From the IMG/VR virus record IMGVR_UViG_3300032668_001213, positions 1 through 30,976 of that record: a DNA stretch of 30,976 bases; one strand, 5' to 3'. Source of the DNA: a virus. Shown in pieces: positions 2,362 through 28,302 of the stretch (its first letter is position 1; each line of letters begins with the position of its first letter). The translations under genes were made by a program, and so were the position numbers. A model generated the notes under the pieces. The model saw only the letters and a program-made list of their open reading frames with translations. It was not told where the DNA came from and searched no databases.

Positions 2362-3021
2362 TTATTTAGTGTCTCGCTCAGCGGAAGCAACAAAGTCGTA
2401 AAATTCTTTACGTGTTTGTGGTTCGTTCATAAAATCCCCAGATAGCTTAGAAGTAATCATAGCACAACCATGATGCTTTACCCCGCGGTGGCATGCACAA
2501 GTATGAGAACATTTAAGTATAACCGCTACGCCTTGATTACCTACACAAAGTTGATCGATGGCTTGATGTATCTGAACAGTAAGGCCTTCCTGGATTTGAG
2601 GACGACGAGCATAATGTTCTACAATACGATTAAGCTTAGATAAGCCAATTACTTGACCGTTCTTATCAGGAATATAAGCTACGTGTGCTACACCAGTAAA
2701 AGATAGGTGATGATGGGAACACATAGATACTACAGGTATATTCATCTGACTAACAATACCATCATAACCGTCTGATGGGAATGTAGTAATTTTAGGCGGA
2801 CCTTCATAGCAACCTTTAATAAGGTCACATACATAAGCTTTAGCTACACGACGAGGTGTATCAGCACTATTGACGTCATTACGCCAATCAATACGTAGTG
2901 CATCAAGAAAAGACGAATACGCTTCTGCTGCTTTATCAATAATTGCTTTCCTATCTTCTTCTGTAGTAATCATACTACTATTAGCTGTAGGAAGTGTTGG
3001 GTGTTTAACTTCGTTTGACAT
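2362..3021 (-). CDS. folE: GTP cyclohydrolase I (FolE)
   Basis: This enzyme converts GTP to 7,8-dihydroneopterin triphosphate, the first step towards folate or the 7-deazaguanine preQ0. The core is plain: MCSHHHLSFTGVAHVAYIP, with VIGLSKLNRIV after it, and a later HTCACHRGV segment. By comparison with E. coli FolE the zinc ligands are C101, H104 and C175, and H103 matches the catalytic His. I chose ATG at 3021 (MSNEVKHP, 219 aa), 19 bases after the preceding gene stops. ATG at 3087 would add 22 residues and overlap that gene by 47 bases; neither start has an SD. With queF, dpdA, a dpdN-like gene and queD nearby, its likely job is supplying precursor for modified phage DNA rather than folate. 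Confidence 0.93.
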   Translation of the reverse strand: MSNEVKHPTLPTANSSMITTEEDRKAIIDKAAEAYSSFLDALRIDWRNDVNSADTPRRVAKAYVCDLIKGCYEGPPKITTFPSDGYDGIVSQMNIPVVSMCSHHHLSFTGVAHVAYIPDKNGQVIGLSKLNRIVEHYARRPQIQEGLTVQIHQAIDQLCVGNQGVAVILKCSHTCACHRGVKHHGCAMITSKLSGDFMNEPQTRKEFYDFVASAERDTK

Positions 3022-3040
3022 ATTAAAAGAATTTACGGAC

Positions 3041-3367
3041 TTAAACTTTTCGCCCGTTGTATAACTCTGATTTGTTGTTGATTCCATATTTTACTAAATA
3101 GTTTATTATAACCTCAATTGAGTCGGTTTTCAACTTAAACTTTTCAGGAATAAATTGCCCGCCATCATAAAATTCAAAATAGTATTCACCAAAAATACTA
3201 TCGTTACTGTAACATGTACAATATACTGAAGCATTACCAGGGTCGATCATAACTGTCCAGTTACGAGGATCTGCTTCTCCATATTGATCAAAGATCTTAA
3301 AAACTACATAACCTGAGTCTTTAAGCCTTTTAATGAAATAGCTTTGTGTTGTTATCTTATTAGCCAT
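3041..3367 (-). CDS. Hypothetical protein (108 aa) between clamp and folE
   Basis: A 108-residue soluble protein, aromatic-rich and probably alpha/beta (SGYVVFKIFDQYGEADPRNW, then a YCTCYSND stretch and GEYYFEFYDGG). Its ATG shares one base with the stop codon of the clamp gene (TAATG), so it is likely translated by reinitiation after the clamp. The two close cysteines (YCTC) alone do not make a metal site. I do not recognise the family. Its position between sliding clamp and FolE in a compact operon suggests an early-expressed accessory protein. Confidence 0.6.
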   Translation of the reverse strand: MANKITTQSYFIKRLKDSGYVVFKIFDQYGEADPRNWTVMIDPGNASVYCTCYSNDSIFGEYYFEFYDGGQFIPEKFKLKTDSIEVIINYLVKYGINNKSELYNGRKV

Positions 3368-10365: not shown

Positions 10366-11283
10366 TTATTGACGTGGGAATTTAAAATAAGGTGTACCTG
10401 CATCAATTAAATGTTGGTCAAGTAGTTCTTTCTTTGAAGCACGAGTAGGTACAATATCCCAACCACCGCGGCGAGCGTAGAAGCAAGTTACCATTAGCTC
10501 TTCTGGTTGTAATAAGTCCCAAAGACGTTTATACGCAGCTTCACAGATTTCTTCGTGGAAATGGCATTCATTACGGAATGATACAATCCACTCTAATAAG
10601 GATTGCTCTGTTACCTCTTTATCACCTTTATAGTATACAAAAATATCGCCAGAGTCTGGTTGTTTAGTAATCTTACAGTTAGAACGAAGTAAAGTACTCA
10701 TATAGAAGTGTTGTTTAACAACTTCTGCTTCATTAGCTACTAGTAAGTCTGCATTTTCATTGAACACAGTAAATTTAATATTTTCTGCACTTTTAATCTT
10801 TTCTAGTGGGAGCCACACTTCAGGGGCATAATCTCTCATCCATACTTCTCTTAAAGGAAAATCTTTTGCTTGTATTTGAGAGAATAATTCTACTTCTACT
10901 GTAGTCTCTAATAGTTTAGATAGATCTTCTGAAGCAGTCTTTTTGATATTGTTTAAAGCTTCTGCTACAGTCTTGCCCATCGGTTGCATATTAAACGAAT
11001 TCCAGTAAAGCTTCATTGACTTAGACTCTACAATGTAAGGATTAGTAGCAGGGTATACCACTTTAGCAACACAAGTAACGGGTAACCCATTATCTGTTAA
11101 TGCACTACATTCATAACCATTCCAGATATCGTAACCTACGAATGGTAAAGAATCGTTCTGTAAACCTAAATAGGTACGATTACGTTGACGTTCTTCACGC
11201 ACTAAAATCTCAGGCGTGTAGGTGGTAGGAGAATCAACTCTCTGACCAAGTACTTTGTCAATATTATTAGTATTATAGCTCAT
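10366..11283 (-). CDS. queF: 7-cyano-7-deazaguanine (preQ0) reductase, QueF long form
   Basis: A 305-residue NADPH-dependent reductase of the E. coli-like two-domain QueF type (282 aa), reducing the nitrile of preQ0 to the aminomethyl of preQ1. The NADPH motif ESKSMKLYW is at 86-94, preceded by LPFVGYDIWNGYE (46-58). The active-site Cys is C203 in LLRSNCKITKQPD, with D210 as the partner Asp, and FHEE (242-245) provides the conserved His/Glu pair. RRGGWDIVPTR (271-281) is the C-terminal signature. The gene overlaps the kinase gene start region by 11 bases and begins the metabolic part of the dpdA cassette. With DpdA present, preQ1 is probably destined for phage DNA rather than tRNA queuosine. 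Confidence 0.93.
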   Translation of the reverse strand: MSYNTNNIDKVLGQRVDSPTTYTPEILVREERQRNRTYLGLQNDSLPFVGYDIWNGYECSALTDNGLPVTCVAKVVYPATNPYIVESKSMKLYWNSFNMQPMGKTVAEALNNIKKTASEDLSKLLETTVEVELFSQIQAKDFPLREVWMRDYAPEVWLPLEKIKSAENIKFTVFNENADLLVANEAEVVKQHFYMSTLLRSNCKITKQPDSGDIFVYYKGDKEVTEQSLLEWIVSFRNECHFHEEICEAAYKRLWDLLQPEELMVTCFYARRGGWDIVPTRASKKELLDQHLIDAGTPYFKFPRQ

Positions 11284-11851
11284 TGGTAAAATCTTTCTTT
11301 ATTGTATCAGTTACAGTTTTAACTCTATCTTCTACAGAACCCATTACATAAACAAGTTTATCTGCAGGCATAGAATGATGCTTAAGATAGAAATCAAATT
11401 GTTTAATAACCCCATCAAAAAATTCTTTACCTGTACTTCTTTCACCATCTTCTTGTACATTAAGTTCAGGTACAACATAAAAAATCTTATCATAAGTCTT
11501 TAGTAATTCTTCGTATACAGCTAAAGCAGCTTGATATACGTCTTTATTAACCTGACCTTTTTCATAAAAATAAGTAGTATACGCAATACCATCTAAAGCA
11601 CCTCTATCTAAAACCCAGTTACCCGGCGTTAAAGCATACTCTAAATGTCTAGCCATTACCAAGTATTGAGTTAAAGACGTACCACCTTCATTAATAGGTA
11701 CGTTTAAGTCTTTTAAGCCTCTTGTTAAGTTAGTTCTAAACGAAAAATGAAAATCACTAGTAATAGTGTTAACTTCTTTTAGAGCTTTTACTAACGTAGT
11801 CTTACCTTGTGAATGAGCACCGCAAATTGCAGCTTTATAGTTTGATCTCAT
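11273..11851 (-). CDS. P-loop nucleoside/nucleotide-kinase-like ATPase
   Basis: A 192-residue P-loop protein resembling the AAA_28/NadR-like kinase group. Walker A is GAHSQGKTT (11-19). WVLDRGALDGIAY (79-91) holds the DR motif typical of dNMP and nucleoside kinases, and PELNVQEDGERSTG (128-141) looks like a substrate lid with R138. The length suits a small kinase. It overlaps queF by 11 bases and follows the formyltransferase gene by 3 bases, so it is co-translated with the DNA-modification cassette. The substrate cannot be read from sequence: deoxynucleotide supply, or phosphorylation of a modification intermediate, are options. Confidence 0.75.
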   Translation of the reverse strand: MRSNYKAAICGAHSQGKTTLVKALKEVNTITSDFHFSFRTNLTRGLKDLNVPINEGGTSLTQYLVMARHLEYALTPGNWVLDRGALDGIAYTTYFYEKGQVNKDVYQAALAVYEELLKTYDKIFYVVPELNVQEDGERSTGKEFFDGVIKQFDFYLKHHSMPADKLVYVMGSVEDRVKTVTDTIKKDFTNEL

Positions 11852-11854
11852 AAG

Positions 11855-12433
11855 TTATTTATTTAATAGGCTTTTGCGCATAAAGCCAACCCAATTTTCG
11901 ATTGCTAGTTTATGCAGTTTACCGATATAATCGTCTAAGCTATCAAATTCACTATAAATATTCTTACTGTAAAACTCTTTCTCTGACACTACTTTACCAG
12001 CATCTACTTCAGGGATTACTTCATGTATAACATGCCCGTGTTGGTAATAAGGTCTTTCAGCGTGGCTAAACCACACTTTTGCTTGTGGATCTTTACCTTT
12101 TAACTCAGGAAACTTAGTAATAAGACCCGGATGCCCGTTGTATATCTTAAATCTACCACAGATTTCAGGTGGTAGTATACGGAGATAACCGTGAAGGGTA
12201 ATAATATCGGTATGTCTAATAGCTTCCCGATATTCTTCTACAGTTGGCTTCTTGGGTAAGAATATAAAACGATCAAAACATTTTTCTAAAAGATCTGGAT
12301 TAATTTTATCGAGATCTTCAAAGCTTTTATTAGTTATAATTGCATCCGGAAACTTACCGATATTTTTAGATATCTCATATATCTCAGAACCACTCTGAGA
12401 GAAAAATGTTTTCCAGATTAAAGTACGTTTCAT
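11855..12433 (-). CDS. dpdN: PurN-like formyltransferase, candidate dPreQ1 formyltransferase (DpdN)
   Basis: A 192-residue member of the formyl_trans_N fold (glycinamide ribonucleotide transformylase type, using 10-formyl-tetrahydrofolate). The catalytic triad is intact: YNGHPGLI supplies N99 and H101, and EVDAGKVV supplies D144, with the conserved HGYLRILPPE (81-90) before it. Purine biosynthesis genes are absent here. Instead it lies between the kinase and a small ORF in a cassette with queF and dpdA. Published work on phage 7-deazaguanines predicted a formyltransferase, DpdN, that makes the formylamino-methyl derivative of dPreQ1; this gene fits by fold and context. The call is inference, since I cannot compare it with the named DpdN sequences. 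Confidence 0.72.
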   Translation of the reverse strand: MKRTLIWKTFFSQSGSEIYEISKNIGKFPDAIITNKSFEDLDKINPDLLEKCFDRFIFLPKKPTVEEYREAIRHTDIITLHGYLRILPPEICGRFKIYNGHPGLITKFPELKGKDPQAKVWFSHAERPYYQHGHVIHEVIPEVDAGKVVSEKEFYSKNIYSEFDSLDDYIGKLHKLAIENWVGFMRKSLLNK

Positions 12434-12660
12434 ATTTTTAGACGATAACCTATTGTATTATCACTAAAGAAAATTACAAGCGTAAAGTCAACAATACCTT
12501 TAGATATTAAGTAAGGTTTGACTTCTGCAAGCTCTCTTACCGGGAGTTCTTGATTACGAATACAATCCCAAAAACAATAATCGCGGATATAAACAGAATC
12601 GGCCAGTAAGTGAGGATAGTTTGCATGTACTGAATTAGTTATAGCTTCTAAAGTTGTCAT
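12430..12660 (-). CDS. 76-residue orphan between dpdN-like gene and dpdA
   Basis: A 76-residue protein of unknown family, overlapping both neighbours by 4 bases (ATGA junctions), which implies tight translational coupling with dpdA upstream and the formyltransferase downstream. The sequence is mixed: an N-terminal helix (LEAITNSVHANYPHLLADS), an aromatic/Cys segment (IRDYCFWDCIRNQELP), and a C-terminal strand pair (VDFTLVIFFSDNTIGYRL). The two Cys (DYCFWDC) do not form an obvious metal site alone. Its conserved-looking placement makes it a candidate small subunit or regulator of the modification enzymes. Confidence 0.65.
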   Translation of the reverse strand: MTTLEAITNSVHANYPHLLADSVYIRDYCFWDCIRNQELPVRELAEVKPYLISKGIVDFTLVIFFSDNTIGYRLKI

Positions 12661-13463
12661 CCATTAACGTAATTTCTGAACTGAATTAAGTTACTTGCGA
12701 TAATTCTTTCTTGTATTTCGTCCGGTACTACATCTAAGAGATCTACAAGCTTAGTAGATTCTTTCTTCCAGTTACCAATAACATCAGAATATCTTACTCT
12801 CTTAATACCGTGTACAATAGGAGAAGAAGTGTCTAGTGTTTCGATCCAGTGATATTGAGGGCTTTGATAGAAACTAAATTCTCTAGGGTGTGCACAACCT
12901 AATAAATGGTGAGGTTTATCTTTATTAATAATACCATCATTCATTAATTGCGTTAAAGTCATTACTCTACCCATCATATAAGATACCCACTTGTTAGGAT
13001 GAGGAAATGCTTTAAGGTAGTAAGAATAGTCGAACGAAATAGCTAGTTTATCTACACCGATCTCTTGATCTAGTGTTACATAACACTTAACTAATTCCCC
13101 GTAAGTCTTACCCTGTACAACACCAATAGTTTTAGCACTACTAACAAAGTCCCAATCGTGCCATAAACACTTTTTAGCTGAATCAATAGTACCTTGACAG
13201 TCTTCTAATACGTCTGGTATGATATACTCTGTTGGGTTTAATTTTTGTATCCAGTGTGCATAACGCTTAGGATCAAAAGAGGTACCTAGTTCGAAAATAG
13301 AATTGTCTAATAGAACATGTCTGCCTCCTTTAACACTTTCTTCAAAGAACTTATAGTACTTTGGGTGCTCTTCAAATAAATGCACAAGAGCGTAGTCATA
13401 ATCATTGTATGTGCGAGAAATCTCGAGCATACTTAAGGGAGATTCATGTGATATTTTAATCAT
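12657..13463 (-). CDS. dpdA: DpdA-type DNA guanine transglycosylase
   Basis: A 268-residue TGT-fold protein of the kind that exchanges guanine in DNA for a 7-deazaguanine base. TGT-like motifs appear in order: LLDNSIFELG (51-60, D53), IIPDVLED (81-88, D84 at the general acid/base site), VVQGKTYGEL (115-124), HLLGCAHPREF (186-196) and ETLDTSSPIVHG (208-219). D211 matches the nucleophile Asp of TGTs, followed by the conserved Ser-Pro. It lacks the zinc site and C-terminal extension of bacterial tRNA TGT and is shorter, as phage DpdA proteins are. The start codon overlaps the polymerase stop by 4 bases. The subfamily cannot be set by eye. Confidence 0.85.
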   Translation of the reverse strand: MIKISHESPLSMLEISRTYNDYDYALVHLFEEHPKYYKFFEESVKGGRHVLLDNSIFELGTSFDPKRYAHWIQKLNPTEYIIPDVLEDCQGTIDSAKKCLWHDWDFVSSAKTIGVVQGKTYGELVKCYVTLDQEIGVDKLAISFDYSYYLKAFPHPNKWVSYMMGRVMTLTQLMNDGIINKDKPHHLLGCAHPREFSFYQSPQYHWIETLDTSSPIVHGIKRVRYSDVIGNWKKESTKLVDLLDVVPDEIQERIIASNLIQFRNYVNG

Positions 13464-16021
13464 GAGAATATGTCAAATAAGTCTGTTGTTACTTCGTTAG
13501 TTAAATCTGGTAAACGCCATCCAATAGCTTCATATACAGCTAATATCGGCGGTTTAATTATTGTATCGAACATTTCAATATAGTCTACTTGAAATTCATT
13601 AAATTCTGGTGGAAAGTTGTAAGGATAACAAAGAGTATCGATATTATACTTGTTTGGTGCAATATAAATCTTCTTTACTTTACCACCGGAAGTAATTCGT
13701 TCATACTTTGTTTCCAAATGTAAATGTTTTAGTAGTTGATTATACCATAATGCACCTTTAACGTGATTTGGTGTACCAGTACCTATCTTAAAGCCATCTG
13801 CTTTTACTTCGTACTTCTCTAAATCACTAAGACCACCGCGAATAGCAATTTCATCTACATTCAACGTTTTAAACGTGTCATAAACCTCTTTGTAAAGGCT
13901 GTTTGCCTTTATTTGATCCTGACCTAACAGAGAGTTCTCAATGACCTTCTTAATCAGTTCTTTTGCTTTCTTTGGCGTTGTAGATCTAGCGATTTCTACC
14001 CCAACATACTTAAACTTATTAACGTTTGCACCTTCATCGTTTAATACGTGAATAATATAGCGCTTCTTCTGTAGATAAACACCTACATCACAAATTGATT
14101 CACGTTTAAAGAAGTAACGAGGGTCAGTAGACTTAAATTCTGCAGCAGACCAACGTTTAATTTCGTTATTTAAATATGTACCGATTTCTTTATCGATTAA
14201 ATCTATACCTTCTGGTGTTACTTTACCGTTAGCAAATAGCTTTATCTTAAGCTTATCAACAATCGGTTGAATAGTAACATGAGTACTGTCAGTGTCACCA
14301 TAAATGTTAAGAGAAACGTTAACTCCGTATTTTTCTTTAGCATATGTATCAAGGATGATACCTGCCTGCTTAACCACAGACTGCCCAGTAAGAGTAATGC
14401 TACCGGCGTGATCACTATCACAAATAGGACTAAACTTATTAGCAAAAACACCGTAAATGGAGTTAAGAAGAATTTTGATAACGTGCTGTATGGTGTCAGC
14501 TCGTTCCATATTAAACTTACACGTTTTATATTCATCAGTATCTGGGGTTAAATTACTTAGCTGTTTCTTATATTCAATATACTGATTTTTGTTTCTTACC
14601 CGCTCACTATAAAGGTTATCAATTAGAGACGGTACAACACCTTTTTTCTTCTGTGTATACAAAACGTTAGCTTTTGATATAGCTAACTTTTCAATCTCCA
14701 TAAACTTTTCGAGCTTATCGAGGGGTACTGTCTTTTCAGTACCACTAGCTAACAATAAAGTAGCTTCAGTATCGGTCTTGCGAATAATTTTACCTATCTT
14801 AGTCTCTGGCGAAATATTAAGAGTAATGATAGTGTTAGGGTATAGTGAATTAGCGTCATAACTCACTACTGCAGTCTTTAAACCGCGTTCTGGATCTCTA
14901 ACATAACCACCTTCAATTTCATCTCTAGTAGGGCCTGAAACGAATGTTGGTATAACCATACCGTGTTTATACGCTTCTAAAGCAACACAACCAGTAACAA
15001 TAGATACTTTACCTAAAGCAGCTTCAAAACTAGTTAAGCCTTTGTACGCTAACATACGAATAATTTTAAAGAACTGTAATTTCTTTTCCATTCGTACTAA
15101 CAGGTCAACGTCCTGAATATTATAATCTACAAAGTTATTCCAGTCGTTTTCAGATAGAGAAGCTAAGTTAGTAGCGTTAATAGCTAATTTACCTTCACCT
15201 AATTCATGTTGAGCAACAAAGTTTAGTGCGTATGATTCAAGCAAACCACGTGCAAAACCTTTATATACTTCAAGGTAGTCCATAGCTGATATACCGTGAA
15301 TATACCAACGATCTAACTCTTGTCCTTTAACGAAAATACCTTTACGACACCATAGACTTTTTAACGGCGATAAGCGTTTAGCTGCGTTTTCACCTAATAA
15401 ATTATTAATACGGTTAATGGTATAAGGAAAGTCGAAAAAGTCTGTATTCCACCCGGATAGAATATCAGGGTAGTAGTCTTTCTCCCAAAAGTCTAAGAAC
15501 TTATTGAGTAGATCTACTTCGCCACTACACTCCGTATAAATGACGTTTTTACGTGTTGGTGTGTATGGTTTACAACCCCAGGTATAAAACGTTTCTGATA
15601 AGTTATCGTATATCGTTATAAGGTTGATAGGGTGCTTAGCATCCTTAGCTTCAGGAAACTCATCTGGTGAATAAACTTCAATATCAAGAAAACAAACCTT
15701 TAATGGGTTAGCAGAAAACTCAGGCTTTTCGTAATCTTCTTTATACTTTTCGATAAGAAACTGCTGTTCTACCTGAATATTGTGATATAAACGTTTAATA
15801 GCACCGTCCTGCGCTGCTTTATTACGTTCAAACGAATTCTTAAATACCTTTTTCTTTAACTTAGTGTTAAAGATAGATAAAGCATCAGCGTTATCCTGAT
15901 TAGTTTCTACATAAAAATAAGGACTATACAGTTCTTTCTTAACTGTACGGTTACCGTTTTTATCCCAGGTAAAAAGGTAAGCAGTAGATTCGCGAGAATT
16001 ATAATATACGTTACGATACAC
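13460..16021 (-). CDS. 43: DNA polymerase, family B (gp43)
   Basis: An 853-residue replicative polymerase with proofreading. Exonuclease motifs: FLDIEVYS (D113, E115), SGWNTDFFDFPY (N192, D194) and YNIQDVDLL (Y300, D304). Polymerase motifs: A, SYDANSLYPNTI (387-398); B, KILLNSIYGVFANKF (516-530); C, IYGDTDST (573-580). All catalytic acidic residues are present. T4 gp43 is 898 aa. The likely start is GTG at 16021 (reads YRNVYYNSRES); no ATG lies nearby in frame, and only a distant AGGTGG precedes it. Its stop overlaps the dpdA start by 4 bases, so replication and modification enzymes are made from coupled reading frames. Confidence 0.95.
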   Translation of the reverse strand: MYRNVYYNSRESTAYLFTWDKNGNRTVKKELYSPYFYVETNQDNADALSIFNTKLKKKVFKNSFERNKAAQDGAIKRLYHNIQVEQQFLIEKYKEDYEKPEFSANPLKVCFLDIEVYSPDEFPEAKDAKHPINLITIYDNLSETFYTWGCKPYTPTRKNVIYTECSGEVDLLNKFLDFWEKDYYPDILSGWNTDFFDFPYTINRINNLLGENAAKRLSPLKSLWCRKGIFVKGQELDRWYIHGISAMDYLEVYKGFARGLLESYALNFVAQHELGEGKLAINATNLASLSENDWNNFVDYNIQDVDLLVRMEKKLQFFKIIRMLAYKGLTSFEAALGKVSIVTGCVALEAYKHGMVIPTFVSGPTRDEIEGGYVRDPERGLKTAVVSYDANSLYPNTIITLNISPETKIGKIIRKTDTEATLLLASGTEKTVPLDKLEKFMEIEKLAISKANVLYTQKKKGVVPSLIDNLYSERVRNKNQYIEYKKQLSNLTPDTDEYKTCKFNMERADTIQHVIKILLNSIYGVFANKFSPICDSDHAGSITLTGQSVVKQAGIILDTYAKEKYGVNVSLNIYGDTDSTHVTIQPIVDKLKIKLFANGKVTPEGIDLIDKEIGTYLNNEIKRWSAAEFKSTDPRYFFKRESICDVGVYLQKKRYIIHVLNDEGANVNKFKYVGVEIARSTTPKKAKELIKKVIENSLLGQDQIKANSLYKEVYDTFKTLNVDEIAIRGGLSDLEKYEVKADGFKIGTGTPNHVKGALWYNQLLKHLHLETKYERITSGGKVKKIYIAPNKYNIDTLCYPYNFPPEFNEFQVDYIEMFDTIIKPPILAVYEAIGWRLPDLTNEVTTDLFDIFS

Positions 16022-16052: not shown

Positions 16053-17228
16053 TCAAGAAGGAAAGTAAACTTTCATATGCTCGTCAATATGATCTTCCAA
16101 CCAGTATTTGGTAGCAACCTTACGAGCATCATCTGATTCGTTCAAGTACATTCTACGGTCTCTTAGTAGCTTCTTAGCTAAATCCATCATTTCATCAGGA
16201 GTATCGAACCGTAGTGGCGCAATAGGGTCTGTATTATATGGTGGAGCGTCTTGGCATAAACATGGAATACCTAGTGCACCTGCTTCAAGATACTTGATAG
16301 GTGCTTTAGCATAATTAAACTTGTTATTCTGTAAAGGTGCAAATGCTAAATTAAGGTTTAACGAATCAAATGCATAATTGTATTCGTATAATGATTTCCA
16401 CCCAACAAACTCAACTTCACCAGCTTGAATAAGATCTTGTATACCGTTTGGAGCAGCACCCATAAATACCCATTTATAATCCTTGTAAGTTTTACGAATA
16501 ATATCGGTATAAGGCTCAATATCATCTATTACACCTGGTAATCTCATTACGTTTAAGTGTGTTGGACTACCTACATAACCAATACGCGGACGCTTTTTAT
16601 TACGGTCAAAATTTTCTACTACCTTTTGTTTACTATAAAAACGATCCATCCAGAATTTAGGTAAATAGTTAGGAACAACTATAGCTGGTACCCCGGTTCT
16701 TTCTGAATAGTAATCTGCCATGAACTTAGTAGGGCAAGTAATAGCATCACAAAGTCTAATAATTTCAGTAGCAGTTTTACCTATAACTGGATCAACAAAA
16801 GCTTCTCTAGATTTGTTGTATAGAGGAATATCTTCAGGGAAAATAACGTCGTCAATTTCGTAATAGATTTTAAACTTGTTACCTTTATTAGAAGTATCTC
16901 TTAAGAACTTTACAAACTCTAATTGAGGGGGTGTTACTTGACGTTGTATCTTTACTGACTTAACTCCTGCATAATAACGTGGGTCTAGTAACATCACAGT
17001 TGAGTTAATAACAACACCCCTACCAGAAGCATTAATTAAAGATTCTGGCCAATGTAAGCGCCAGAAACCGCAACCACCATGATCAGCTGCAAAGCTAATA
17101 GCCATATTAGCTGGGGCAGGACCACCAGGAGATGGGGCTTGAACCTGCTGTGCATTAGCAATAGGAGAACCAAATGCAGGTGCTCCAAATGGAAGTGCGG
17201 GTGCGCCAAGTACGAAGGAATTATTCAT
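16053..17228 (-). CDS. GT-B glycosyltransferase with Ala/Pro-rich leader
   Basis: A 391-residue glycosyltransferase of the GT-B fold (GT1/GT4-like). After an Ala/Gly/Pro-rich leader (residues 1-41, with GAPALPFGAPAFG repeats) the folded part begins MAISFAADHGGCGFWRLHWP. Donor-side features follow: RIGYVGSPTHLNV near residue 206, and IKYLEAGALGIPCLC near 318, the usual place for the sugar-nucleotide contacts. The acceptor is unknown. It overlaps the gp46 stop by 8 bases (ATGAATAA), and gp43 follows after 31 bases. Related GT-B genes occur in replication regions of other marine T4-like phages. It is separated by gp46 from the five-gene glycosyltransferase island. Confidence 0.8.
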   Translation of the reverse strand: MNNSFVLGAPALPFGAPAFGSPIANAQQVQAPSPGGPAPANMAISFAADHGGCGFWRLHWPESLINASGRGVVINSTVMLLDPRYYAGVKSVKIQRQVTPPQLEFVKFLRDTSNKGNKFKIYYEIDDVIFPEDIPLYNKSREAFVDPVIGKTATEIIRLCDAITCPTKFMADYYSERTGVPAIVVPNYLPKFWMDRFYSKQKVVENFDRNKKRPRIGYVGSPTHLNVMRLPGVIDDIEPYTDIIRKTYKDYKWVFMGAAPNGIQDLIQAGEVEFVGWKSLYEYNYAFDSLNLNLAFAPLQNNKFNYAKAPIKYLEAGALGIPCLCQDAPPYNTDPIAPLRFDTPDEMMDLAKKLLRDRRMYLNESDDARKVATKYWLEDHIDEHMKVYFPS

Positions 17229-19047
17229 TATTAAAATTTGTTGTTGCTCTTACTGTAATACCGTTTTTCTTTTCTAGGAATATAATTTCACCACTTGTAC
17301 AGTATTTCATACTTTCCTTGCGGTGTGATATTATATACACTGCCTCTTGGTATTTTTCCACTCTATCACGTATTATATCCAATACCAATTCAATACCTTT
17401 TTCATCTAAAGATGAGTCAAGTAATTCGTCAAATACGGATATATTCAACCATACATTAGCTTTAGCTCTACGGATATCCTGAAAAGTAAAGATCATTGCA
17501 AGATCAATTGCTTTACGTTCAGCTCCAGAAAAATTAAAGTAACTACATTCAGCACCACGTTCATTAGTGATAGTTTCTTCAAAGAACTCATTAAACTTGA
17601 CTGTACTATTACTTTCAAGCTTTTTAAGGTAATAAGCAAGTCTAAGGTTTAATACTTCTAATATCTTTTTAACAATATACGACTTTACACCTTCTTCTGA
17701 AGTAATAAACTTAGCGGACTCAATTATATCAATTCTAGTCTGTAGCTCTTCTACTTTTACTTTAATTTCAGATATACGATCTTCTATCTTCTTAATATTA
17801 TCGTTATATGCACCGTCATCGTTATTCAATGCATCTAAATCTACTACTAACTGTGATTGCCACTCTTTAAGCTGGTTTAAACGATTGTTAATACTCTCTA
17901 CTTCTTTTTTACGAATATTAAAATCATTTATCTTCTTTTGGGTATTAGTAATATGAGTCTCAACTTTATTTAACTGGTTTTGAGCTTCTACTAAGAGAGG
18001 CTTCTGTGTATTAACTACTTCAGTAAATTTTTGTATTTCGTTTTGACATTCAGCTTTGTCTTTTTCGTATTGTAAGTTAGTAGCTTCTGCTAAGTCTTTA
18101 CCACAATGCGGACATCTACTATCTACCTTTTTAAGCTTCTTGATACGATCATTATTAAGTTTAATATGTGTTTCTGCTTCTGTAATGAGCTTATTAATAG
18201 CAGCTATCTTACGATCGCATAAATTTTCAGCATTTTTAAGCGCTGACATATTATCTAATATCTTTTTCTCAGCTTCAGTATCTACTGATTCAATCTTACC
18301 AATCTTTTCGTTAATTAAAGCAATTTCTTGTGTATTATTACGTTGACGAGTAAGAAGCACTTCTCTACGTTTACTTTTCGTTTCTTCGTATGTTTCTCTT
18401 TGCTTAATGCTATCTTGTAATGATTTCTCAGTAGTATCTATCTTAGCATGTTCAATATCTAAGCAACGTTTAGCTTCATTAAAATCTGAACGGGCAATAA
18501 GCAACATATTGCTAAACACCTCTAAACCTAGAATACCTTCAATAAACTTACGTTTTTCGATTTTCTTTTGAGCCATAAACGGTACTGTATTGTTTATGGT
18601 CATTACTACACTATTCTGAAACACTTCTGAAGAAGTATTAATAATATCTATAATGTACTCTGTAGTTTGTGGTACACCTGAACGAGTCTTGTCTTCACCG
18701 TTAATAAACAGATGGCACTTAGTAGGATTAAGTGTTCTTACTATTTTATATTCAGTTTTTACATTATTAATATCTACAGTAAACTCTAATTCTACCTCAC
18801 AAACGTCTTCTGGATAAAGATTGTTAACAATGTTTTCTTTCTTAAGATCTCTAATGGTAGATCCATACAAAGCAAAGTGTATAGCATCTGCAACTGTAGA
18901 CTTACCTACACCGTTTGCACGATCTGCTTTATCTAAATTACGCCCGGTAATAATATTCAACCCGGGCTTAAAATCTACCGCAACCGGTCTTTTACCTACA
19001 GACAGGAAGTTAGTAATTTTAATTGACTTAAAAAAGACGTACTGCAT
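17221..19047 (-). CDS. 46: Recombination nuclease ATPase subunit gp46 (Rad50/SbcC-like)
   Basis: A 608-residue SMC-like ATPase that works with gp47 to resect DNA ends for UvsX-driven recombination. The N-terminal half-site has Walker A GVGKST (46-51). Long coiled-coil arms (about 190-305 and 320-450) flank a zinc hook CPHC (312-315). The C-terminal half-site has signature FSGAERKAIDLA (506-517) and Walker B VFDELLDSSLDEKG (538-551). T4 gp46 is 560 aa. I chose ATG at 19047 (MQYVFFKSIK); a TTG at 19074 would lie inside the upstream gene. An AGAGG sits about 15 bases upstream, with a small inverted repeat between it and the ATG. Confidence 0.92.
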   Translation of the reverse strand: MQYVFFKSIKITNFLSVGKRPVAVDFKPGLNIITGRNLDKADRANGVGKSTVADAIHFALYGSTIRDLKKENIVNNLYPEDVCEVELEFTVDINNVKTEYKIVRTLNPTKCHLFINGEDKTRSGVPQTTEYIIDIINTSSEVFQNSVVMTINNTVPFMAQKKIEKRKFIEGILGLEVFSNMLLIARSDFNEAKRCLDIEHAKIDTTEKSLQDSIKQRETYEETKSKRREVLLTRQRNNTQEIALINEKIGKIESVDTEAEKKILDNMSALKNAENLCDRKIAAINKLITEAETHIKLNNDRIKKLKKVDSRCPHCGKDLAEATNLQYEKDKAECQNEIQKFTEVVNTQKPLLVEAQNQLNKVETHITNTQKKINDFNIRKKEVESINNRLNQLKEWQSQLVVDLDALNNDDGAYNDNIKKIEDRISEIKVKVEELQTRIDIIESAKFITSEEGVKSYIVKKILEVLNLRLAYYLKKLESNSTVKFNEFFEETITNERGAECSYFNFSGAERKAIDLAMIFTFQDIRRAKANVWLNISVFDELLDSSLDEKGIELVLDIIRDRVEKYQEAVYIISHRKESMKYCTSGEIIFLEKKNGITVRATTNFNNE

Positions 19048-19066: not shown

Positions 19067-19927
19067 CTAAGCAATATTATTCAACGTGTCCAACATTCTT
19101 TTTGCTACTGCTGTTGCAGTACAGTTCTGATATAATGCCTGTCTAAACGATTCAATATGTTTGTCGTAAACGTTTTCAGGTTTTTCTTTGTTAAATATGT
19201 CTGTAAGCACGCTTTGACATTCTTTCTTAGGAAAATACTTCATTGTAAGATCAGGGCATTTATCTATGTTATAAAACACGGGTATACAGCCGTTACCTAA
19301 TATTTCGTAATGTCTCAAGCAATCCCAACCAGCTTTCCTTACAGTTACACCGAATCTTGATTCATTATAATCATTGTAGTAGTCTTTTTCGTTTTTGTAT
19401 ATGTACGTACTTTTATCTAAAGGTGTAATATATGCTACATTTTTAACTTTATTTGTGTTAAAGTTAATTTTACACATAGGTATAGCAAAATTTATAGGAA
19501 ACATTCTAGGCTTTTCGTAAACAAGCTCGCGCTTAAAATAGACAATACCTTTACTATAAGAAGGATGAATATTAGTTTCATCTTCCCCATCTATTGCAAT
19601 AATTTTATTGGTTGGGTAGTATTTTAGTATTTCATCTAGATAATCACTACATCTCCATATAGAACCATACACTACAAGGTCAAAGTATCTGTTTACAATT
19701 TTAGAAGTAATATCAGTACGATCTACATCTAAATCTGGTAATACGCGAGTTACGGTCATACCCATACCGTAAAGCTTACTAGCTCTCTCAGCATCGTAAT
19801 TATCATAGTTGTGAGCTTGTTTGTTAAGATCAACAACATCTGCACCGTATAGTTCCTTAAGACCTATCAGTACTGCATCATTTTGATAGTCTACGTGATC
19901 GCCTTTAGTTAGGTAAAGTATTTTCAT
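19067..19927 (-). CDS. Glycosyltransferase-like protein (island gene 5)
   Basis: A 286-residue protein with a Rossmann-like N-terminus (MKILYLTKGDHVDYQNDAV) and a C-terminal segment CLRHYEILGNGCIPVFYN near residue 210, the shape of an exostosin/GT-B donor-binding region (EI..G..P). Between them are LVVYGSIWR (near 84) and IIAIDGEDE (near 108). No membrane segment or signal peptide is seen. It is the last gene of the five-gene island, overlaps the next upstream GT by 4 bases and ends 19 bases before the gp46 start. Donor and acceptor are unknown. A non-catalytic GT-fold protein is possible. Confidence 0.65.
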   Translation of the reverse strand: MKILYLTKGDHVDYQNDAVLIGLKELYGADVVDLNKQAHNYDNYDAERASKLYGMGMTVTRVLPDLDVDRTDITSKIVNRYFDLVVYGSIWRCSDYLDEILKYYPTNKIIAIDGEDETNIHPSYSKGIVYFKRELVYEKPRMFPINFAIPMCKINFNTNKVKNVAYITPLDKSTYIYKNEKDYYNDYNESRFGVTVRKAGWDCLRHYEILGNGCIPVFYNIDKCPDLTMKYFPKKECQSVLTDIFNKEKPENVYDKHIESFRQALYQNCTATAVAKRMLDTLNNIA

Positions 19928-20814
19928 AGAAATTTTAATAATGATTTAACTCTTGCTGTAGCTGTATGGTATTTTGATACTTTGTCAAAGCCTGCTTGAG
20001 CAATTTTAAGTCTTTCTTCATCATGAGATGAATAGTAGTTTACTTTATCGATACAATCATCTAAAGAATCGAAATATACAATATCTTTACCTTCTTCGAA
20101 TATTAAATCTATACGAGTATCTTTATCTAGTCTATCAGCAATAACCATTCTATTAGCTAACATACCTTCAAATATACGACGTGTTACTTCTTTATATTGA
20201 CTGTTCTGTAAAACGATTTTACCTCTTCTGAGATACGATGAATGTTCTAAAGCGTGTAAACCACTACGAGTATCAAATCTATCACCTAGACGCGCTCTTA
20301 CACTTTGAAAGAACTTATCTGATACATCTCTAGTACATACTGCATCTAAATCAGGTTCAATACTATAAACCTTCCCAGGGTACATGGCGGTATCCGCAAA
20401 ATGCGGGAACCACATAGCTTTATAGCCTAAACCTGTATATCTCTGTACACATCTAATATCTGGCGAAATAATAAAGTCAAATTTACCAATCTGAGCTTTT
20501 TGATAATTATATGCAAAGCTTTGCGGGTCATCACCAGATTCCAGTATCCATTTTGCGGAAGGAAATTGATCTTTAGTTAAAAGAGGACTACGAAACATGC
20601 CGTAATCAAGATTAATGATTACGTCTGGTATGAATATACCTGATTTAGCTTCAAAAAGTAAGTCAGTTATACCATCTTCAGTATACTGCTCTTGCAAATT
20701 CATTGAAGAGTAGCATTTGGTTTTATGGCCAGCTGCTTCAAACTCTCTTTGTAAAGCTATAGACGTATTCCAGACGTCTTTAGGTAATCTTGCATACAAA
20801 AACGATATGTTCAT
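19924..20814 (-). CDS. GT-B glycosyltransferase (GT4-like, island gene 4)
   Basis: A 296-residue protein with a GT-B plan: N-terminal MNISFLYARLPKDVWNTSIA acceptor-side domain, a central VINLDYGMFRSPLL region, and a C-terminal domain with the donor motif RRIFEGMLANRMVIADRLDK, followed by FEEGKDIVYFDSLDD, which is typical of glycos_transf_1_2 proteins. I chose ATG at 20814, one base after the preceding gene's stop; the longer form from 20850 would begin inside that gene. It overlaps the following GT gene by 4 bases (ATGA). The sugar and target are unknown. Confidence 0.75.
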   Translation of the reverse strand: MNISFLYARLPKDVWNTSIALQREFEAAGHKTKCYSSMNLQEQYTEDGITDLLFEAKSGIFIPDVIINLDYGMFRSPLLTKDQFPSAKWILESGDDPQSFAYNYQKAQIGKFDFIISPDIRCVQRYTGLGYKAMWFPHFADTAMYPGKVYSIEPDLDAVCTRDVSDKFFQSVRARLGDRFDTRSGLHALEHSSYLRRGKIVLQNSQYKEVTRRIFEGMLANRMVIADRLDKDTRIDLIFEEGKDIVYFDSLDDCIDKVNYYSSHDEERLKIAQAGFDKVSKYHTATARVKSLLKFL

Positions 20815-20815
20815 C

Positions 20816-21565
20816 TTATAAAGTATATTCTTTAAATTTTTTAAAGCCACCAGATTTGAATGGCTCTTCTAAATGCCATTTTGTACCAAGTATGTTACCT
20901 TGTGCATCCATATTAGCCGGTATATATTGACATCTTTGAGGTCCTCGATTAGCTTTAGCGGTATCACCGCTCTTATGACTAACTCGTGCACTTGTTAATA
21001 CGCCGTGTACGAGGTTGTTACGTTGTAAACTTAAAATATAGTCATTGTCTTGATAAAAGAAATAAAATCTTTCATCTAAATAACCAATCTTTTCAAATAC
21101 ACTTCTACGAGCGCAGAAACATGCTCCAAACATATGCAGTGCTATTTCCCAGCCGTAATAAAGCTTGTTATCGTTAACAAAATACTGTTTGGTGTGACGA
21201 TGCCACTCTCTGTCTATAGGGCTAATAGAACTAATAAAAGAATTACTTTCAAATTCTTTTACAATGTTTTGTATACAGTTTTTTTGTATGGTTAGGTCGT
21301 TATTAGGGCCCATAACATACTCAGCTTTACAGCGACTTAAACCTATGTTATAAAACTGGTTATAATTAAACTCAAAAGGAGGTATTATTACCTCTACCTT
21401 AGGTTGGTTATAATCTTTATTAAATTGCTTATACGATTCTATTACGTATATCTTTTCAATTAATTCATCAGCAGTAGCTATGTATGAATCAATACAGTTT
21501 TTAGTAGTTTGAAAGCTCTTGTCGTCTTCAGCAAGAGATAAAATAATAACATCAACTTTGTTCAT
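20816..21565 (-). CDS. GT-A (GT2-like) glycosyltransferase (island gene 3)
   Basis: A 249-residue GT2-type protein. It begins MNKVDVIILSLAEDDKSF, the usual strand-turn of the nucleotide-sugar site. The metal/donor motif position reads GPNNDLTI (86-93), so the classic DxD is NND here. A later GACFCARRSVFEKIGYLDE with FFYQDNDY matches the GT2 acceptor and catalytic-base area (about 148-178). The C-terminus is basic (FKKFKEYTL). It overlaps the preceding island gene by 14 bases. Typical roles are transfer of hexoses to glycans, proteins or DNA-linked groups; nothing in the sequence picks one. Confidence 0.78.
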   Translation of the reverse strand: MNKVDVIILSLAEDDKSFQTTKNCIDSYIATADELIEKIYVIESYKQFNKDYNQPKVEVIIPPFEFNYNQFYNIGLSRCKAEYVMGPNNDLTIQKNCIQNIVKEFESNSFISSISPIDREWHRHTKQYFVNDNKLYYGWEIALHMFGACFCARRSVFEKIGYLDERFYFFYQDNDYILSLQRNNLVHGVLTSARVSHKSGDTAKANRGPQRCQYIPANMDAQGNILGTKWHLEEPFKSGGFKKFKEYTL

Positions 21566-22337
21566 TTATAAATCTTTCTACGTCCTTATTAACGTCGTAT
21601 TGGTGAACAACTACAGGTATAATACTACCATCAATAACAATTTTACCATTTTTTATTTTAACTGTTCTCTTAGCATTAGCATATGCCATATTGGCTACTG
21701 TATTATAGTCCCAAATGTTGTATCTAAGATAATCAAATCGTACTACTTTGTTTAAAACAGCTTGATCAACGTTTGGATAGTTACCAATTCTACCGATTAC
21801 AATCGATATATCGGAACACATCTCTTTTAACAACTCTGCACATCTTTCTCTGTGGCCTAAAATTGCGCCACCATTAATAATTTCATAACCTCTAGTAAGA
21901 TTAAAAATATCTGTATTATAGCACAAGTTCATCCAAGTTGTGTTAGTTTTACAGTTCATTATAAGCTCTATTTCATGAAACACTGTAGGTTTACCTTGGG
22001 TCTTATAAAAGTCCTTAAATACATCTCCTTGAAAATAGACGTCTGTAAAATCACATAGAAATACATTTTCTGAAGTTGAGATCTTACTGCAATACAAATA
22101 AAAGAATATAACTTTAAGAGTATACGGCGAAAGATTTAAATCTACATTGTATTTTTCAGCAATAGGATGAGCATTCACATAATTGACGTTGTTGTTTTTA
22201 AAATAATCAACAACATCGTCTTTTAAATTACAACCAATGACAGTTACTTTGCTACCTGTCTTTATAGCAGACTGTATAAAGACTTTTATACCTTTATTAA
22301 GGCTGTAATTTTGCCCGTATGTAATTATTTCGTTCAT
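21552..22337 (-). CDS. GT-A-fold glycosyltransferase (GT8/DUF616-like, island gene 2)
   Basis: A 261-residue protein with GT-A features: an N-terminal alternating strand/helix domain (KVTVIGCNLKDDVVDYF), a metal-type motif FLCDFTDVYFQGD (93-105, with D96 and D99), and INGGAILGHRERCAELL near residue 155, matching the NGG/A-type segment of transferases that bind sugar nucleotides. A late PVVVHQYDVN near 243 may supply the C-terminal His common to GT8-like enzymes. It overlaps both neighbours (14 and 4 bases). Target unknown. Confidence 0.72.
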   Translation of the reverse strand: MNEIITYGQNYSLNKGIKVFIQSAIKTGSKVTVIGCNLKDDVVDYFKNNNVNYVNAHPIAEKYNVDLNLSPYTLKVIFFYLYCSKISTSENVFLCDFTDVYFQGDVFKDFYKTQGKPTVFHEIELIMNCKTNTTWMNLCYNTDIFNLTRGYEIINGGAILGHRERCAELLKEMCSDISIVIGRIGNYPNVDQAVLNKVVRFDYLRYNIWDYNTVANMAYANAKRTVKIKNGKIVIDGSIIPVVVHQYDVNKDVERFINEQS

Positions 22338-23155
22338 TTATTTTTAATCTGTTTAAGAATATTTAAAACCTCGTTTTGTGTATAGTTTCTAGGTTCGTTA
22401 GGGTAATGACCGTGCTTCTTTTTGTATAACTCTCTACCGCCGTACACGTTTTTCTGCCATTGCTCTGTTTTATTAGCAATAGAAGAGTTATCTATAGCAC
22501 CAGGCGCTTCTTCAAGGTATTTTTCACTATCAGCTATATCAGCAAACCACCAAAAAGGGGGGTGATAACCAGCTAATGCAATACGGTAAGTATGATCTAC
22601 GTGCTCCCAAGCATTATAAAATTGCTCATCAATATAACCCACTTTCTCAAGTATTTCTCGTGTAAAAAACGAAAACATCGCCACTGTATGAGTATATAAT
22701 GCAATTTTAACGTTGTTAGGATACTCAACTATAATACGAGGATTAACCGGGCTCTTTTGATCTAATAAATGTCTGTTATGAAGATCAAATTCTATATTTT
22801 GTTTACGATTAAATGGTGAACCAGGACCGTAATTAAAATGATGTATACCTGATTCTTTATATGCTTCAATATATTTGTAAAACACGGTCTTATCTTTAAT
22901 GAGCATATCATCTTCAATAATAAAAATGTAATCACAACTAGCATCATACAAATGCTTCATTGCTTTATTCTTAGATTTACCCACACCTAGATTAACTTCA
23001 TTTTGTAACCAAGTACCTGGTACCTCTATTTGGTTTTCAGCTTTACCGTCATTTACAACCACTAGTTCATTCACAACATCCATAGGGAGTGTTGCGATTA
23101 ATGCTTTGAGGTAATCGTTTCTATTACAGGTAATTATGCCTACACCGATTTTCAT
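22334..23155 (-). CDS. GT2-family glycosyltransferase (GT-A, island gene 1b)
   Basis: A 273-residue GT2 enzyme. It opens MKIGVGIITCNRNDYLKALI, the standard GT2 start, followed by VVNDGKAEN (34-42) and NLGVGKSKNKAM (55-66). The DxD-like motif is IIEDDML (79-85). The acceptor/catalytic segment FFTREILEKVGYIDEQFYNA with AWEHVDHTYR is near residues 163-191. The C-terminus (YTQNEVLNILKQIKNK) is basic and helical. It overlaps genes on both sides by 4 bases, so it is translated as part of the island. Of the island genes this has the most complete GT2 motif set. Confidence 0.85.
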   Translation of the reverse strand: MKIGVGIITCNRNDYLKALIATLPMDVVNELVVVNDGKAENQIEVPGTWLQNEVNLGVGKSKNKAMKHLYDASCDYIFIIEDDMLIKDKTVFYKYIEAYKESGIHHFNYGPGSPFNRKQNIEFDLHNRHLLDQKSPVNPRIIVEYPNNVKIALYTHTVAMFSFFTREILEKVGYIDEQFYNAWEHVDHTYRIALAGYHPPFWWFADIADSEKYLEEAPGAIDNSSIANKTEQWQKNVYGGRELYKKKHGHYPNEPRNYTQNEVLNILKQIKNK

Positions 23156-24129
23156 GTTAAGAATACATCCTTATACTGAGTAATTACTGACTTTGGGCTA
23201 AATTTCTCTGTAAACATGTCCCAGTTTTGACTACGTAAATGTTGTACATCCAAACCTTTCATTATATTAACTAAACCGTCATAATCGTGATAAACTATAG
23301 CTTTACTACCTAAATGATCTAGATGTGCTATATCATAACCTGGATAATCCTTACCGCTCCATGTTATAACAGGTTTATTACAAGAAGAGAACTCTCCTAC
23401 CGATAATCCGAACGTTTCTCCAATCTGTCTAGCATGTAACATAATATCGCATGCATGAATAAAATTAAAAATACCTCTTTCATTACCTACCCAAGGAAAG
23501 AAAATTGCTCTTTCATGATTAATGAATTGATTTGTAGACAAAAACAAAAAGTAAACGTCTTTTCTAGTATTAAGAATAGTCTGTACAGCTTGTTTTACGA
23601 AAGGTAAGTCGAAAGACTCTTTACCACCGTGTCTACCAATAACTAATGCATCTTTAGGTATATTTAACGCTGCTCTAATATCTTTAGTAGGTTCCATACC
23701 CTGTATAATATGAGGTACGTAAGCGGTAAGATTAAATTTACGTGCTAATGCATTAGATACAGCAGCAAACACATTACCATGAGGTTGGGAACCATCAAAT
23801 ATATAATGAGTACCTGTTTTGCAGTTCTCTGGGTTAATATTATCATTAGCACCAGATTTCATCATTTGCATAAAATCTATTTTTTGCTCTGCTACTATCT
23901 TTTCAATCTGACGCTTAACATCTGCAGCTGGTGCTCTATTTGCGTTACCGTTGTATTGGAATACTTGGAATTCTTTTTGTATTCTAGGCAAACCTTCATT
24001 AGGATCATCATGTGTAGTAACATACACTACTTCATGCCCGAGAATATCTCGTAAAGCTAAGCCATAATCATATGGTGTTTTACCTGTACCTCTACCATCG
24101 AATTGATTTGAGTGTATTGCGATTTTCAT
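23152..24129 (-). CDS. GT-B glycosyltransferase (GT4 family, island gene 1)
   Basis: A 325-residue GT4-like protein and the first gene of the island in transcription order. The N-terminus MKIAIHSNQFDGRGTGKTPY has the glycine-rich loop typical of GT-B. The C-terminal donor domain shows VIGRHGGKESFDLPF near residue 162 and GETFGLSVGEFSSCNKPV (237-254), with the E-x7-E arrangement of GT4 enzymes. Its ATG begins one base after the gp47 stop, so it is coupled to gp47. No signal or membrane segment. Acceptor unknown. Confidence 0.82.
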   Translation of the reverse strand: MKIAIHSNQFDGRGTGKTPYDYGLALRDILGHEVVYVTTHDDPNEGLPRIQKEFQVFQYNGNANRAPAADVKRQIEKIVAEQKIDFMQMMKSGANDNINPENCKTGTHYIFDGSQPHGNVFAAVSNALARKFNLTAYVPHIIQGMEPTKDIRAALNIPKDALVIGRHGGKESFDLPFVKQAVQTILNTRKDVYFLFLSTNQFINHERAIFFPWVGNERGIFNFIHACDIMLHARQIGETFGLSVGEFSSCNKPVITWSGKDYPGYDIAHLDHLGSKAIVYHDYDGLVNIMKGLDVQHLRSQNWDMFTEKFSPKSVITQYKDVFLT

Positions 24130-24130
24130 A

Positions 24131-25183
24131 TTACATTCTAATAGCTTTACTGTATAGTTCTGTTACGTATTGTTTAGTATTATCTTTATTTTTAATATCC
24201 ATTAACTCGACGAATTCTTCTATAGACTTCTCTACACTAATGTTAAATTCTTTATTTGCAGCTTCTTCTATATTAACCTTACTTTGTTCAGTAACATCGT
24301 GCTCCATAGTAAACTCTACTGGTTTAACAGATACTAATTTACGCACGATAGCTTCTAATGTAATAGGGTCAACTACTTTATCAACGATAAACTTAACTAT
24401 GTTACCTTGTATTACTGCTTTAAGAGTTTCAGGTGTGTACGCTCCGTTAGTTAATTCTGTATACTGTAAACGTCTGTATTGAGGGGAAACATTATTCTCT
24501 ATAAATTTATAACTTAAATCTGCAAGATCTAATATGTATAAACCTTTAGTAGTACCAAAATCCCCCCAATCTTGCTGATAAGGTGCACCAACATATAATA
24601 TTGTACCTTTTTCGTATTTACGTTCTTCTCTATGATGGAAATGACCTGTAATAGTTAAAGGTGCTCTATCGGTTAAATCAGAAGACTTTAAACCGTTGGT
24701 ACAAACTTTATAAGAGTTCATTTTAAAGCTATTAATTTCAAAATGACCTACAATTAAATTACACTCAGGTACTTCGTTAATATCTTGACCCCACGGGCAG
24801 AAAGCTATTTTTTGTCCGTGAAACGTTTCGATCGTAATCTTATCAACAACAGTAATATTACTCCAACCGCGAAGAATGGATACGGAATTAACTGTAGAAT
24901 TATCACGGTAGTAAGCATCGTGATTACCCACAGTAATAATGATGTTAAAATCACGCAATACATCAAAAATGTCAGTAACCACGTGAAGAGTATTAACAGC
25001 AATGTCATTACGATCATGAAATATGTCTCCTGGAATTATAATGTCTTGTATACCGTTCTTTTTAAACTGCTCAGCAGCCCATTTTGCATGATCTAATGCA
25101 ATTTTATGCCATGTTGCACTGTTACGGTGCACACCATAATGAGGATCTGAAAATATACCGACTTCTGTACCTTTAATCTGCAT
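24131..25183 (-). CDS. 47: Recombination nuclease subunit gp47 (Mre11/SbcD-like)
   Basis: A 350-residue metallophosphoesterase that pairs with gp46 in DNA end resection. The five phosphoesterase motifs are present: FSDPHYG (D13, H15), IIPGDIFHD (50-58), TVGNHDAYY (84-92), LIVGHFE (143-149) and ITGHFHHRE (178-186). T4 gp47 is 339 aa. The C-terminal region, about 290-350, is helical and basic, as expected for the ATPase-binding part. It overlaps the gp55 stop by 11 bases. Unlike the T4 order, where 46 and 47 are near each other, five glycosyltransferase genes lie between them here. Confidence 0.93.
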   Translation of the reverse strand: MQIKGTEVGIFSDPHYGVHRNSATWHKIALDHAKWAAEQFKKNGIQDIIIPGDIFHDRNDIAVNTLHVVTDIFDVLRDFNIIITVGNHDAYYRDNSTVNSVSILRGWSNITVVDKITIETFHGQKIAFCPWGQDINEVPECNLIVGHFEINSFKMNSYKVCTNGLKSSDLTDRAPLTITGHFHHREERKYEKGTILYVGAPYQQDWGDFGTTKGLYILDLADLSYKFIENNVSPQYRRLQYTELTNGAYTPETLKAVIQGNIVKFIVDKVVDPITLEAIVRKLVSVKPVEFTMEHDVTEQSKVNIEEAANKEFNISVEKSIEEFVELMDIKNKDNTKQYVTELYSKAIRM

Positions 25184-27810: not shown

Positions 27811-28302
27811 ATGGATTTAGGCCATTGGATAACAAATGAAACTTTCGACAGCACTATTTTGCCTTACGGTTTTATTTATCGTATTACAAACTTGGTCAGT
27901 GGTAAGGTCTATTTCGGTAAAAAGCAGATTAAAAGCGTTAAAAAACTTAAACCTCTCAAAGGAAGAAAAAACAAAAGACACTTTGACGTAGAGACAGACT
28001 GGAAAACCTATACTTCATCATCTAATGATGTTAATGAAGATATAGTAAAGCTTGGCAAGAATAAGTTTAAGTTTGAAATACTTAAGTTTTGTGATAGTAA
28101 GTTTGAACTAGCTTATTATGAAGCTAAAATACAGTTCGATCATGATGTCTTACTTAAAGAAGGATACTACAACGGTATTATAAACTGCCGTATTGGAAGA
28201 GCCCCAAATGCATTGTTAAATAAGCTTGCACAACAAAAAAATAACGCTACAATAACTAATAATGCAGGTGCTACCACTCAACTACAATCTTTATCTAGCT
28301 GA
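27811..28302 (+). CDS. GIY-YIG-domain protein (homing-endonuclease-like)
   Basis: A 163-residue protein with a GIY-YIG nuclease core: GFIYRITN (20-27), VYFGKKQI (33-40), then a WKTYTSSSNDVNEDI segment, FKFEILKFCDSK (87-98) and YYEAKIQFD (102-110), where E104 would be the catalytic Glu and NGIIN (121-125) the conserved Asn area. The middle arginine usual after YIG is not in its standard place, so activity is uncertain. It overlaps the next ORF by 41 bases, and its last 20 residues or so (Ala/Asn/Thr/Gln-rich) are probably disordered. GTAGG upstream gives some SD support. It may be a free-standing Seg-like gene. Confidence 0.7.
   Translation: MDLGHWITNETFDSTILPYGFIYRITNLVSGKVYFGKKQIKSVKKLKPLKGRKNKRHFDVETDWKTYTSSSNDVNEDIVKLGKNKFKFEILKFCDSKFELAYYEAKIQFDHDVLLKEGYYNGIINCRIGRAPNALLNKLAQQKNNATITNNAGATTQLQSLSS

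Follow-up and report, generated by a model that had tools for sequence, protein, structure and literature searches.

A likely exchangeable glycosyltransferase cassette at the gp47–gp46 junction of uncultivated T4-like phages

Analysis of a 30,976-base viral record, a fragment deposited in IMG/VR as IMGVR_UViG_3300032668_001213 (here called the window), revealed six consecutive minus-strand open reading frames (ORFs) lying between the nuclease subunit genes gp47 and gp46, which very probably represent an exchangeable glycosyltransferase (GT) cassette in the replication/recombination operon of an uncultivated T4-like phage clade, the window itself coming from a lake phage. The six ORFs, named G6 to G1 in the order of transcription, overlap their neighbours by 4–14 bp or lie 1 bp apart. 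An original prediction, made from the letters of this DNA, had placed consecutive same-strand GT genes between gp46 and gp47, which is correct, but had given their number as five in its title while listing six folds in its text; the count is six. It had also noted a further GT after gp46, which we confirmed as a gene outside the island (GTx), bringing the transferases to seven in all. What it missed is the hypervariability of the locus across the clade and a nearby 7-deazaguanine DNA-modification module.

A gp46 search of viral contigs yielded 80 relatives, all of them environmental or other metagenomic contigs, and gp47–gp46 spacing was counted at 45 loci holding both genes, several being near-duplicates, so that the loci are not independent events. 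At 13 of the 45 loci the junction is empty, with an overlap of exactly 4 bp between gp47 and gp46, which supplies the clean insertion boundary that comparison with island-free relatives had been proposed to look for; the same 4-bp overlap is found in the named phage C48C1. In T4 the two genes are indeed close, as had been stated, with only the tiny ORFs 46.1 and 46.2 between them. At the 32 occupied loci the spacing is 3,213–8,338 bp and the gene sets vary. One set is that of the window, G6-G5-G4-G3-G2-G1; a second consists of G6-G5 and three replacement genes, one encoding a Glyco_trans_1_2 enzyme; a third comprises a G5-like GT2 enzyme, GT11, GT10, a GT7/GT2 enzyme, a dATP/dGTP diphosphohydrolase N-terminal domain and one unclassified gene, GT10 and GT11 being fucosyltransferase families and one of the genes being galactosyltransferase-like. 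Of the island genes, G5 persists most and is found in 35 island loci. The outcome that had been named as speaking against the original prediction, a constant gene set of known and non-glycosyl function at the junction, was not seen: the sets differ and their classifiable members are again mostly GTs, with many genes of the larger islands unclassified. Alternative sets and empty sites at one fixed junction are what characterize a serotype-like exchangeable locus. The diphosphohydrolase-type domain was seen in a short protein (L024:7111-7425) amid the fucosyl- and galactosyltransferase genes of one island type.

A search with G1 reached more distant phages (gp46 mostly 37–40% identical) that carry the order G5-G4-G3-G6-(G2)-G1 at the gp47–gp46 junction, indicating that G6 changes place while the other genes stay together. 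Other distant phages have the cassette away from gp46, upstream of clamp-loader-like and helicase genes. That distant phages keep these families in an almost unchanged arrangement is as expected of genes inherited together. A megablast of the island region against phage records gave no match. Comparison of nine window-type loci shows shuffling of island alleles between close relatives: L010 and L011 are 99% alike in G6 and 96% in G5, yet 84% in uvsW, and the window and L012 are 99% alike in uvsW and 93% in G6, yet 65% in G4 and 73% in G3. The median ratio of non-synonymous to synonymous substitution rates (dN/dS) is 0.06–0.13 for the six island genes versus 0.05–0.09 for the flanking genes and GTx; the island genes are therefore maintained as functional proteins, with purifying selection on all six.

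The island comprises two GT2 enzymes, two GT-B enzymes by profile, one GT-A enzyme by fold and one weak assignment (Table 1), and, as judged from their matches, the GT calls are secure for G2, G3 and G5 and weaker for G6. Four of the genes are GTs by profile and one by predicted structure, G1 being placed by weak profile matches and by its neighbours. Searched against PDB sequences, G2, G3, G5 and G6 had weak GT matches and the remaining G1, G4 and GTx had no useful ones. G6 has a GT4 C-terminal E-x7-E-type motif (GETFGL..E) conserved over 17 homologues and is 38% identical to a gene of Synechococcus phage S-SKS1 located in a sugar cluster. G5 is 23–30% identical to GTs of mycobacteriophages (cluster F1 and others) and of lambdoid phages, and reached phrog_842 at an E value of only 0.006. 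Residues N89-D90 and Q172-D173-N174-D175 of G3 are invariant. The AlphaFold2 model of G4 has a mean predicted local distance difference test (pLDDT) score of 65 and is good mainly in the N-terminal half; its best PDB matches in Foldseek, with E values of about 1e-5, are GT6 galactosyltransferases, glycogenin (GT8) and collagen glycosyltransferases, and C95-D96 and D99 are invariant in 17 homologues. The predicted fold of G4 is compatible with a GT6/GT8-like transferase, in agreement with the GT8-like label that it had been given. G2 probably starts at the ATG at 20814 and is, at 296 aa, shorter than the longest ORF, because its homologues in all close relatives are 296 aa long.

G1 gave no profile match of its own. 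Within a 37-member alignment of its family, five members match Glyco_trans_1_2 weakly (best E 0.0038); a further profile, RXYLT1_C, is matched by three members, and GT88 by one. Exostosin was matched once, at an E value of 0.11 and in a separate alignment, so the exostosin-like label of the original prediction was not established. The structure prediction (pLDDT 55) was too poor for use and the fold search uninformative, and a profile–profile comparison yielded no match between G1 and G2. Taken with its neighbours, G1 is a probable GT to which we assign no family. The G1 family is large and without clear Pfam assignment; its members are spread over many bacteria, SAR11, Chitinophaga and Mucilaginibacter among them, and its GWDC-RHYE motif is invariant. 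This unannotated, widespread family is now placed beside glycosyltransferases.

Table 1 Genes of the island, its flanks and the neighbouring modification module
Feature	Position	Strand	Basis
G6, GT4-like (GT-B) glycosyltransferase	23152-24129	-	weak Glycos_transf_1/Glyco_trans_1_4 matches (Pfam 0.0011), phrog_2170 4.6e-4
G5, GT2 family glycosyltransferase	22334-23155	-	phrog_2456 E 1.3e-29
G4, glycosyltransferase of GT-A fold, resembling GT6/GT8 in its predicted structure	21552-22337	-	no credible profile match
G3, GT2 family glycosyltransferase	20816-21565	-	PF00535 E 5.8e-7
G2, Glyco_trans_1_2 (GT-B) glycosyltransferase	19924-20814	-	PF13524 E 4.9e-21 (scored on longest ORF 19924-20850)
G1, putative GT-B-type glycosyltransferase, unannotated family, GWDC-RHYE motif	19067-19927	-	weak family matches and neighbours
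gp47/SbcD-like nuclease subunit, flanking the island upstream	24131-25183	-	phrog_100 E 1.8e-68, Pfam Metallophos
gp46/SbcC-like nuclease subunit, flanking the island downstream	17221-19047	-	phrog_77 E 6.9e-90
GTx, GT4-like glycosyltransferase after gp46, before DNA polymerase	16053-17228	-	phrog_7162 E 2.5e-25
Family B DNA polymerase (gp43-like), context	13460-16021	-	phrog_262 E 2e-189
DpdA-like DNA guanine transglycosylase, outside island	12657-13463	-	49% to annotated DpdA of Flavobacterium phage immuto; same gene order
Formyltransferase, outside island	11855-12433	-	43% to Flavobacterium phage immuto
Kinase, outside island	11273-11851	-	module gene order as in phage immuto
QueF, outside island	10366-11283	-	QueF_N Pfam E 1.9e-28, TIGR03138 E 4.5e-67; 44% to phage immuto
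GTP cyclohydrolase	2362-3087		

A multi-GT island of this kind probably makes a multi-sugar chain, as had been suggested. We propose that the soluble island enzymes would act in sequence in the cytoplasm on host nucleotide sugars to build one oligosaccharide, the structure of which would differ between phages in the manner of a serotype locus. The chain may then, with lower confidence, be placed on capsid, tail or baseplate proteins and alter the virion surface. GTx, present even at loci without an island, would contribute a sugar that does not vary, or else use another acceptor. The earlier statement that sugar-nucleotide synthesis genes are lacking holds for the window, where we found no epimerase or dehydratase, but relatives carry such genes elsewhere.

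As the putative acceptor we favour a virion protein, then the host surface, then DNA, and the whole reading of a cassette that places a glycan on phage virion proteins falls, in our estimate, slightly short of an even chance. Several observations were counted for a virion-protein acceptor. In the relative G001, a GT2 gene adjoins the major capsid gene gp23, and a cluster of GT11, GT25-like, PF11397 GlcNAc transferase and UDP-galactopyranose mutase genes adjoins a baseplate gene. Three relatives carry a conserved 350-aa gene near gp23, and the copy that was tested, the one of G001, is a GT2. Finally, distant homologues of G5 occur in cluster F1 mycobacteriophages, the cluster of Che8, for which an article citing the original work reports capsid glycans (Freeman 2023, cited in PMC11256854). 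Weighing against this interpretation, the island sits amid replication genes and is presumably expressed before the virion genes, which would suit DNA or host-surface targets equally; the company of bacterial G1 homologues would favour a surface-glycan origin; and the GT2 similarity of G5 leaves the acceptor unfixed. As separate observations on G001, GT2 genes (L084:124-801 and L084:4344-6457) flank the major capsid gene region, one of them having a homologue close to gp23 in two other relatives, and the second sugar cluster, beside the baseplate gene (L087:6613-11727, at 86.6–91.7 kb), also holds a 393-aa protein of unknown function.

If the chain decorates virions, the cassette would give phages an exchangeable antigenic coat, much like the O-antigen loci of bacteria, with effects on receptor binding, superinfection, grazing and immune recognition. 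The strongest form of this idea, a lytic phage clade with a true serotype locus in which complete cassettes, fucosyl- and galactosyltransferase types included, are swapped so that near-identical phages wear different virion sugar coats, is rather unlikely. The exact empty sites and allelic sets make the question of the acceptor testable through comparison of close relatives.

The island might instead modify a host surface polysaccharide (O-antigen or another envelope glycan) during infection and so block adsorption of competing phages, an explanation that we consider unlikely, if by no means negligible. Hypervariable GT clusters of pelagimyophages were read in this way by their authors (PMC7029224), the replication-gene neighbourhood suggests early or middle expression, and the fucosyl and galactosyl families of the alternative set fit envelope glycans. 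The distribution of G1 points in the same direction: among the best 80 of 134 confirmed bacterial stretches (loci L141-L220; SAR11, Bacteroidota and others), homologues often have GT-like or polysaccharide-type genes nearby, including GT2 and apparent rhamnose-synthesis genes in SAR11 and adjoining GT genes in Chitinophaga. However, a lytic phage has little time for envelope remodelling, and the island lacks the membrane-bound parts that such a pathway would use: no island protein has a segment hydrophobic enough for a typical membrane helix (maximum 19-residue hydropathy 1.55), no island gene matched the families of the Gtr-type O-antigen components (membrane-embedded GT, flippase and lipid-linked donor synthase), and neither a lipid-carrier initiating enzyme nor a polymerase was found in the island. 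One locus filed as bacterial, L156 on a Winogradskyella metagenome-assembled genome contig, carries homologues of G6, G2 and G1, with additional transferase-like genes, in a phage-like gene setting, and is probably a phage contig within that assembly.

In a third explanation, which appears improbable, the GTs would hypermodify the bases of phage DNA, and the variable glycan so attached would guard against restriction. Such a DNA glycan would be unusually complex. This explanation is in keeping with the cassette lying, at either kind of site, within a replication operon, with the established existence of DNA-glycosylating phage GTs and with the separate base-modification module close by. In that module the order DpdA–formyltransferase–kinase–QueF (10366-13463) is identical to that of Flavobacterium phage immuto, and the L019 homologue of the DpdA-like gene gives a weak TGT match. 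The DpdA-like, QueF and GTP cyclohydrolase genes provide the combination of DpdA with preQ0/preQ1 synthesis genes by which 7-deazaguanine modification is recognized; QueC, QueD and QueE were not seen in the annotated part of the 31 kb fragment. The module possibly makes formylated preQ1 in DNA, its likely product in the light of work by Cui et al. in 2023, and such a base would have no free amine left for a sugar. Moreover, QueF and the island dissociate among the longest records, which are possibly incomplete: G001 has both, G003 (124 kb) only the island, G002 (127 kb) only QueF and G004 neither. An obligatory link between island and module was accordingly rejected. Nor was a base supply of the T4 type detected, in that a thymidylate-synthase-fold gene (dCMP hydroxymethylase type, PF00303) was seen in none of 20 records, several of them incomplete, and TET/JBP (PF12851) in none of 26 in a search run without a positive control.

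That the junction is a passive landing site gathering unrelated moron genes, with GTs that belong to no single pathway, is very improbable: contents are variable, many genes of the larger islands are unclassified and one alternative set includes a non-GT gene (the diphosphohydrolase domain), but every classifiable window island gene is a GT, homologues of G5, G4, G3, G6 and G1 travel together even to other genomic sites, and selection on the island genes is purifying.

Phage GT islands are already known; what is new is the position of the gp47–gp46 cassette and its clean empty and alternative states, and the literature searched did not yield an account of a GT island separating gp46 from gp47. 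The host recognition cluster of pelagimyophages and cyanomyophages (PMC7029224) is likewise a hypervariable, GT-rich region of T4-like aquatic phages, but lies among structural genes (VrlC to gp14) together with tail fibres, whereas the six GT genes of the window make up a compact cassette amid replication genes, at a junction for which exact empty sites exist. Mycobacteriophage virion glycosylation, as presented in secondary accounts (Freeman 2023, via PMC11256854 and PMC12619734), also involves GTs encoded by phages, some of them GT2 enzymes with distant similarity to G5; there, F1 phages are described with a few GT genes near a genome end, in contrast to six exchangeable GTs. The T4 alpha- and beta-glucosyltransferases of hydroxymethylcytosine resemble the island in being T4-like phage GTs encoded with early/replication genes and differ in that the island is multi-enzyme and variable and its relatives lack a detected hydroxymethylase-type gene; the faint phrog_842 match of G5 (E 0.006) is a further difference. 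The plastic regions of the T4 superfamily (Comeau 2007, as cited in PMC7029224) similarly place variable genes between conserved core genes, and T4 46.1 and 46.2 are inserts at this very junction; unlike these, the island inserts are 3–8 kb long, consist mainly of sugar-transfer genes and come in several allelic sets.

The minus-strand genes of the window are transcribed in the order uvsY, uvsW, a gp55-like sigma factor, gp47, the island and gp46, followed by GTx, the family B DNA polymerase, the DpdA-like, formyltransferase, kinase and QueF genes, uvsX and a DnaB-like helicase gene. GTx and the polymerase come after gp46 in nearly all fetched relatives, empty-site loci included. The start of gp46 is probably downstream of that of the longest ORF, since homologues align from residue 7–10. 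Start codons in the window and three long relatives lack Shine–Dalgarno signals, as expected of Bacteroidota, and this, together with the Flavobacterium host of phage immuto, suggests that the host is probably a member of the Bacteroidota. Neither the late-promoter motif (TATAAATA) nor Bacteroidota promoter motifs are enriched, and sigma-70 and terminator scans remained at chance level. The octamer TATAAATA, the T4 late promoter core, occurs once in the window against 6.75 expected in shuffles and looks depleted. On the plus strand, the gene at 27811-28302 shows matches to homing-endonuclease families (phrog_7363, E 1.3e-18) and also to one family that carries the label NAD synthetase.

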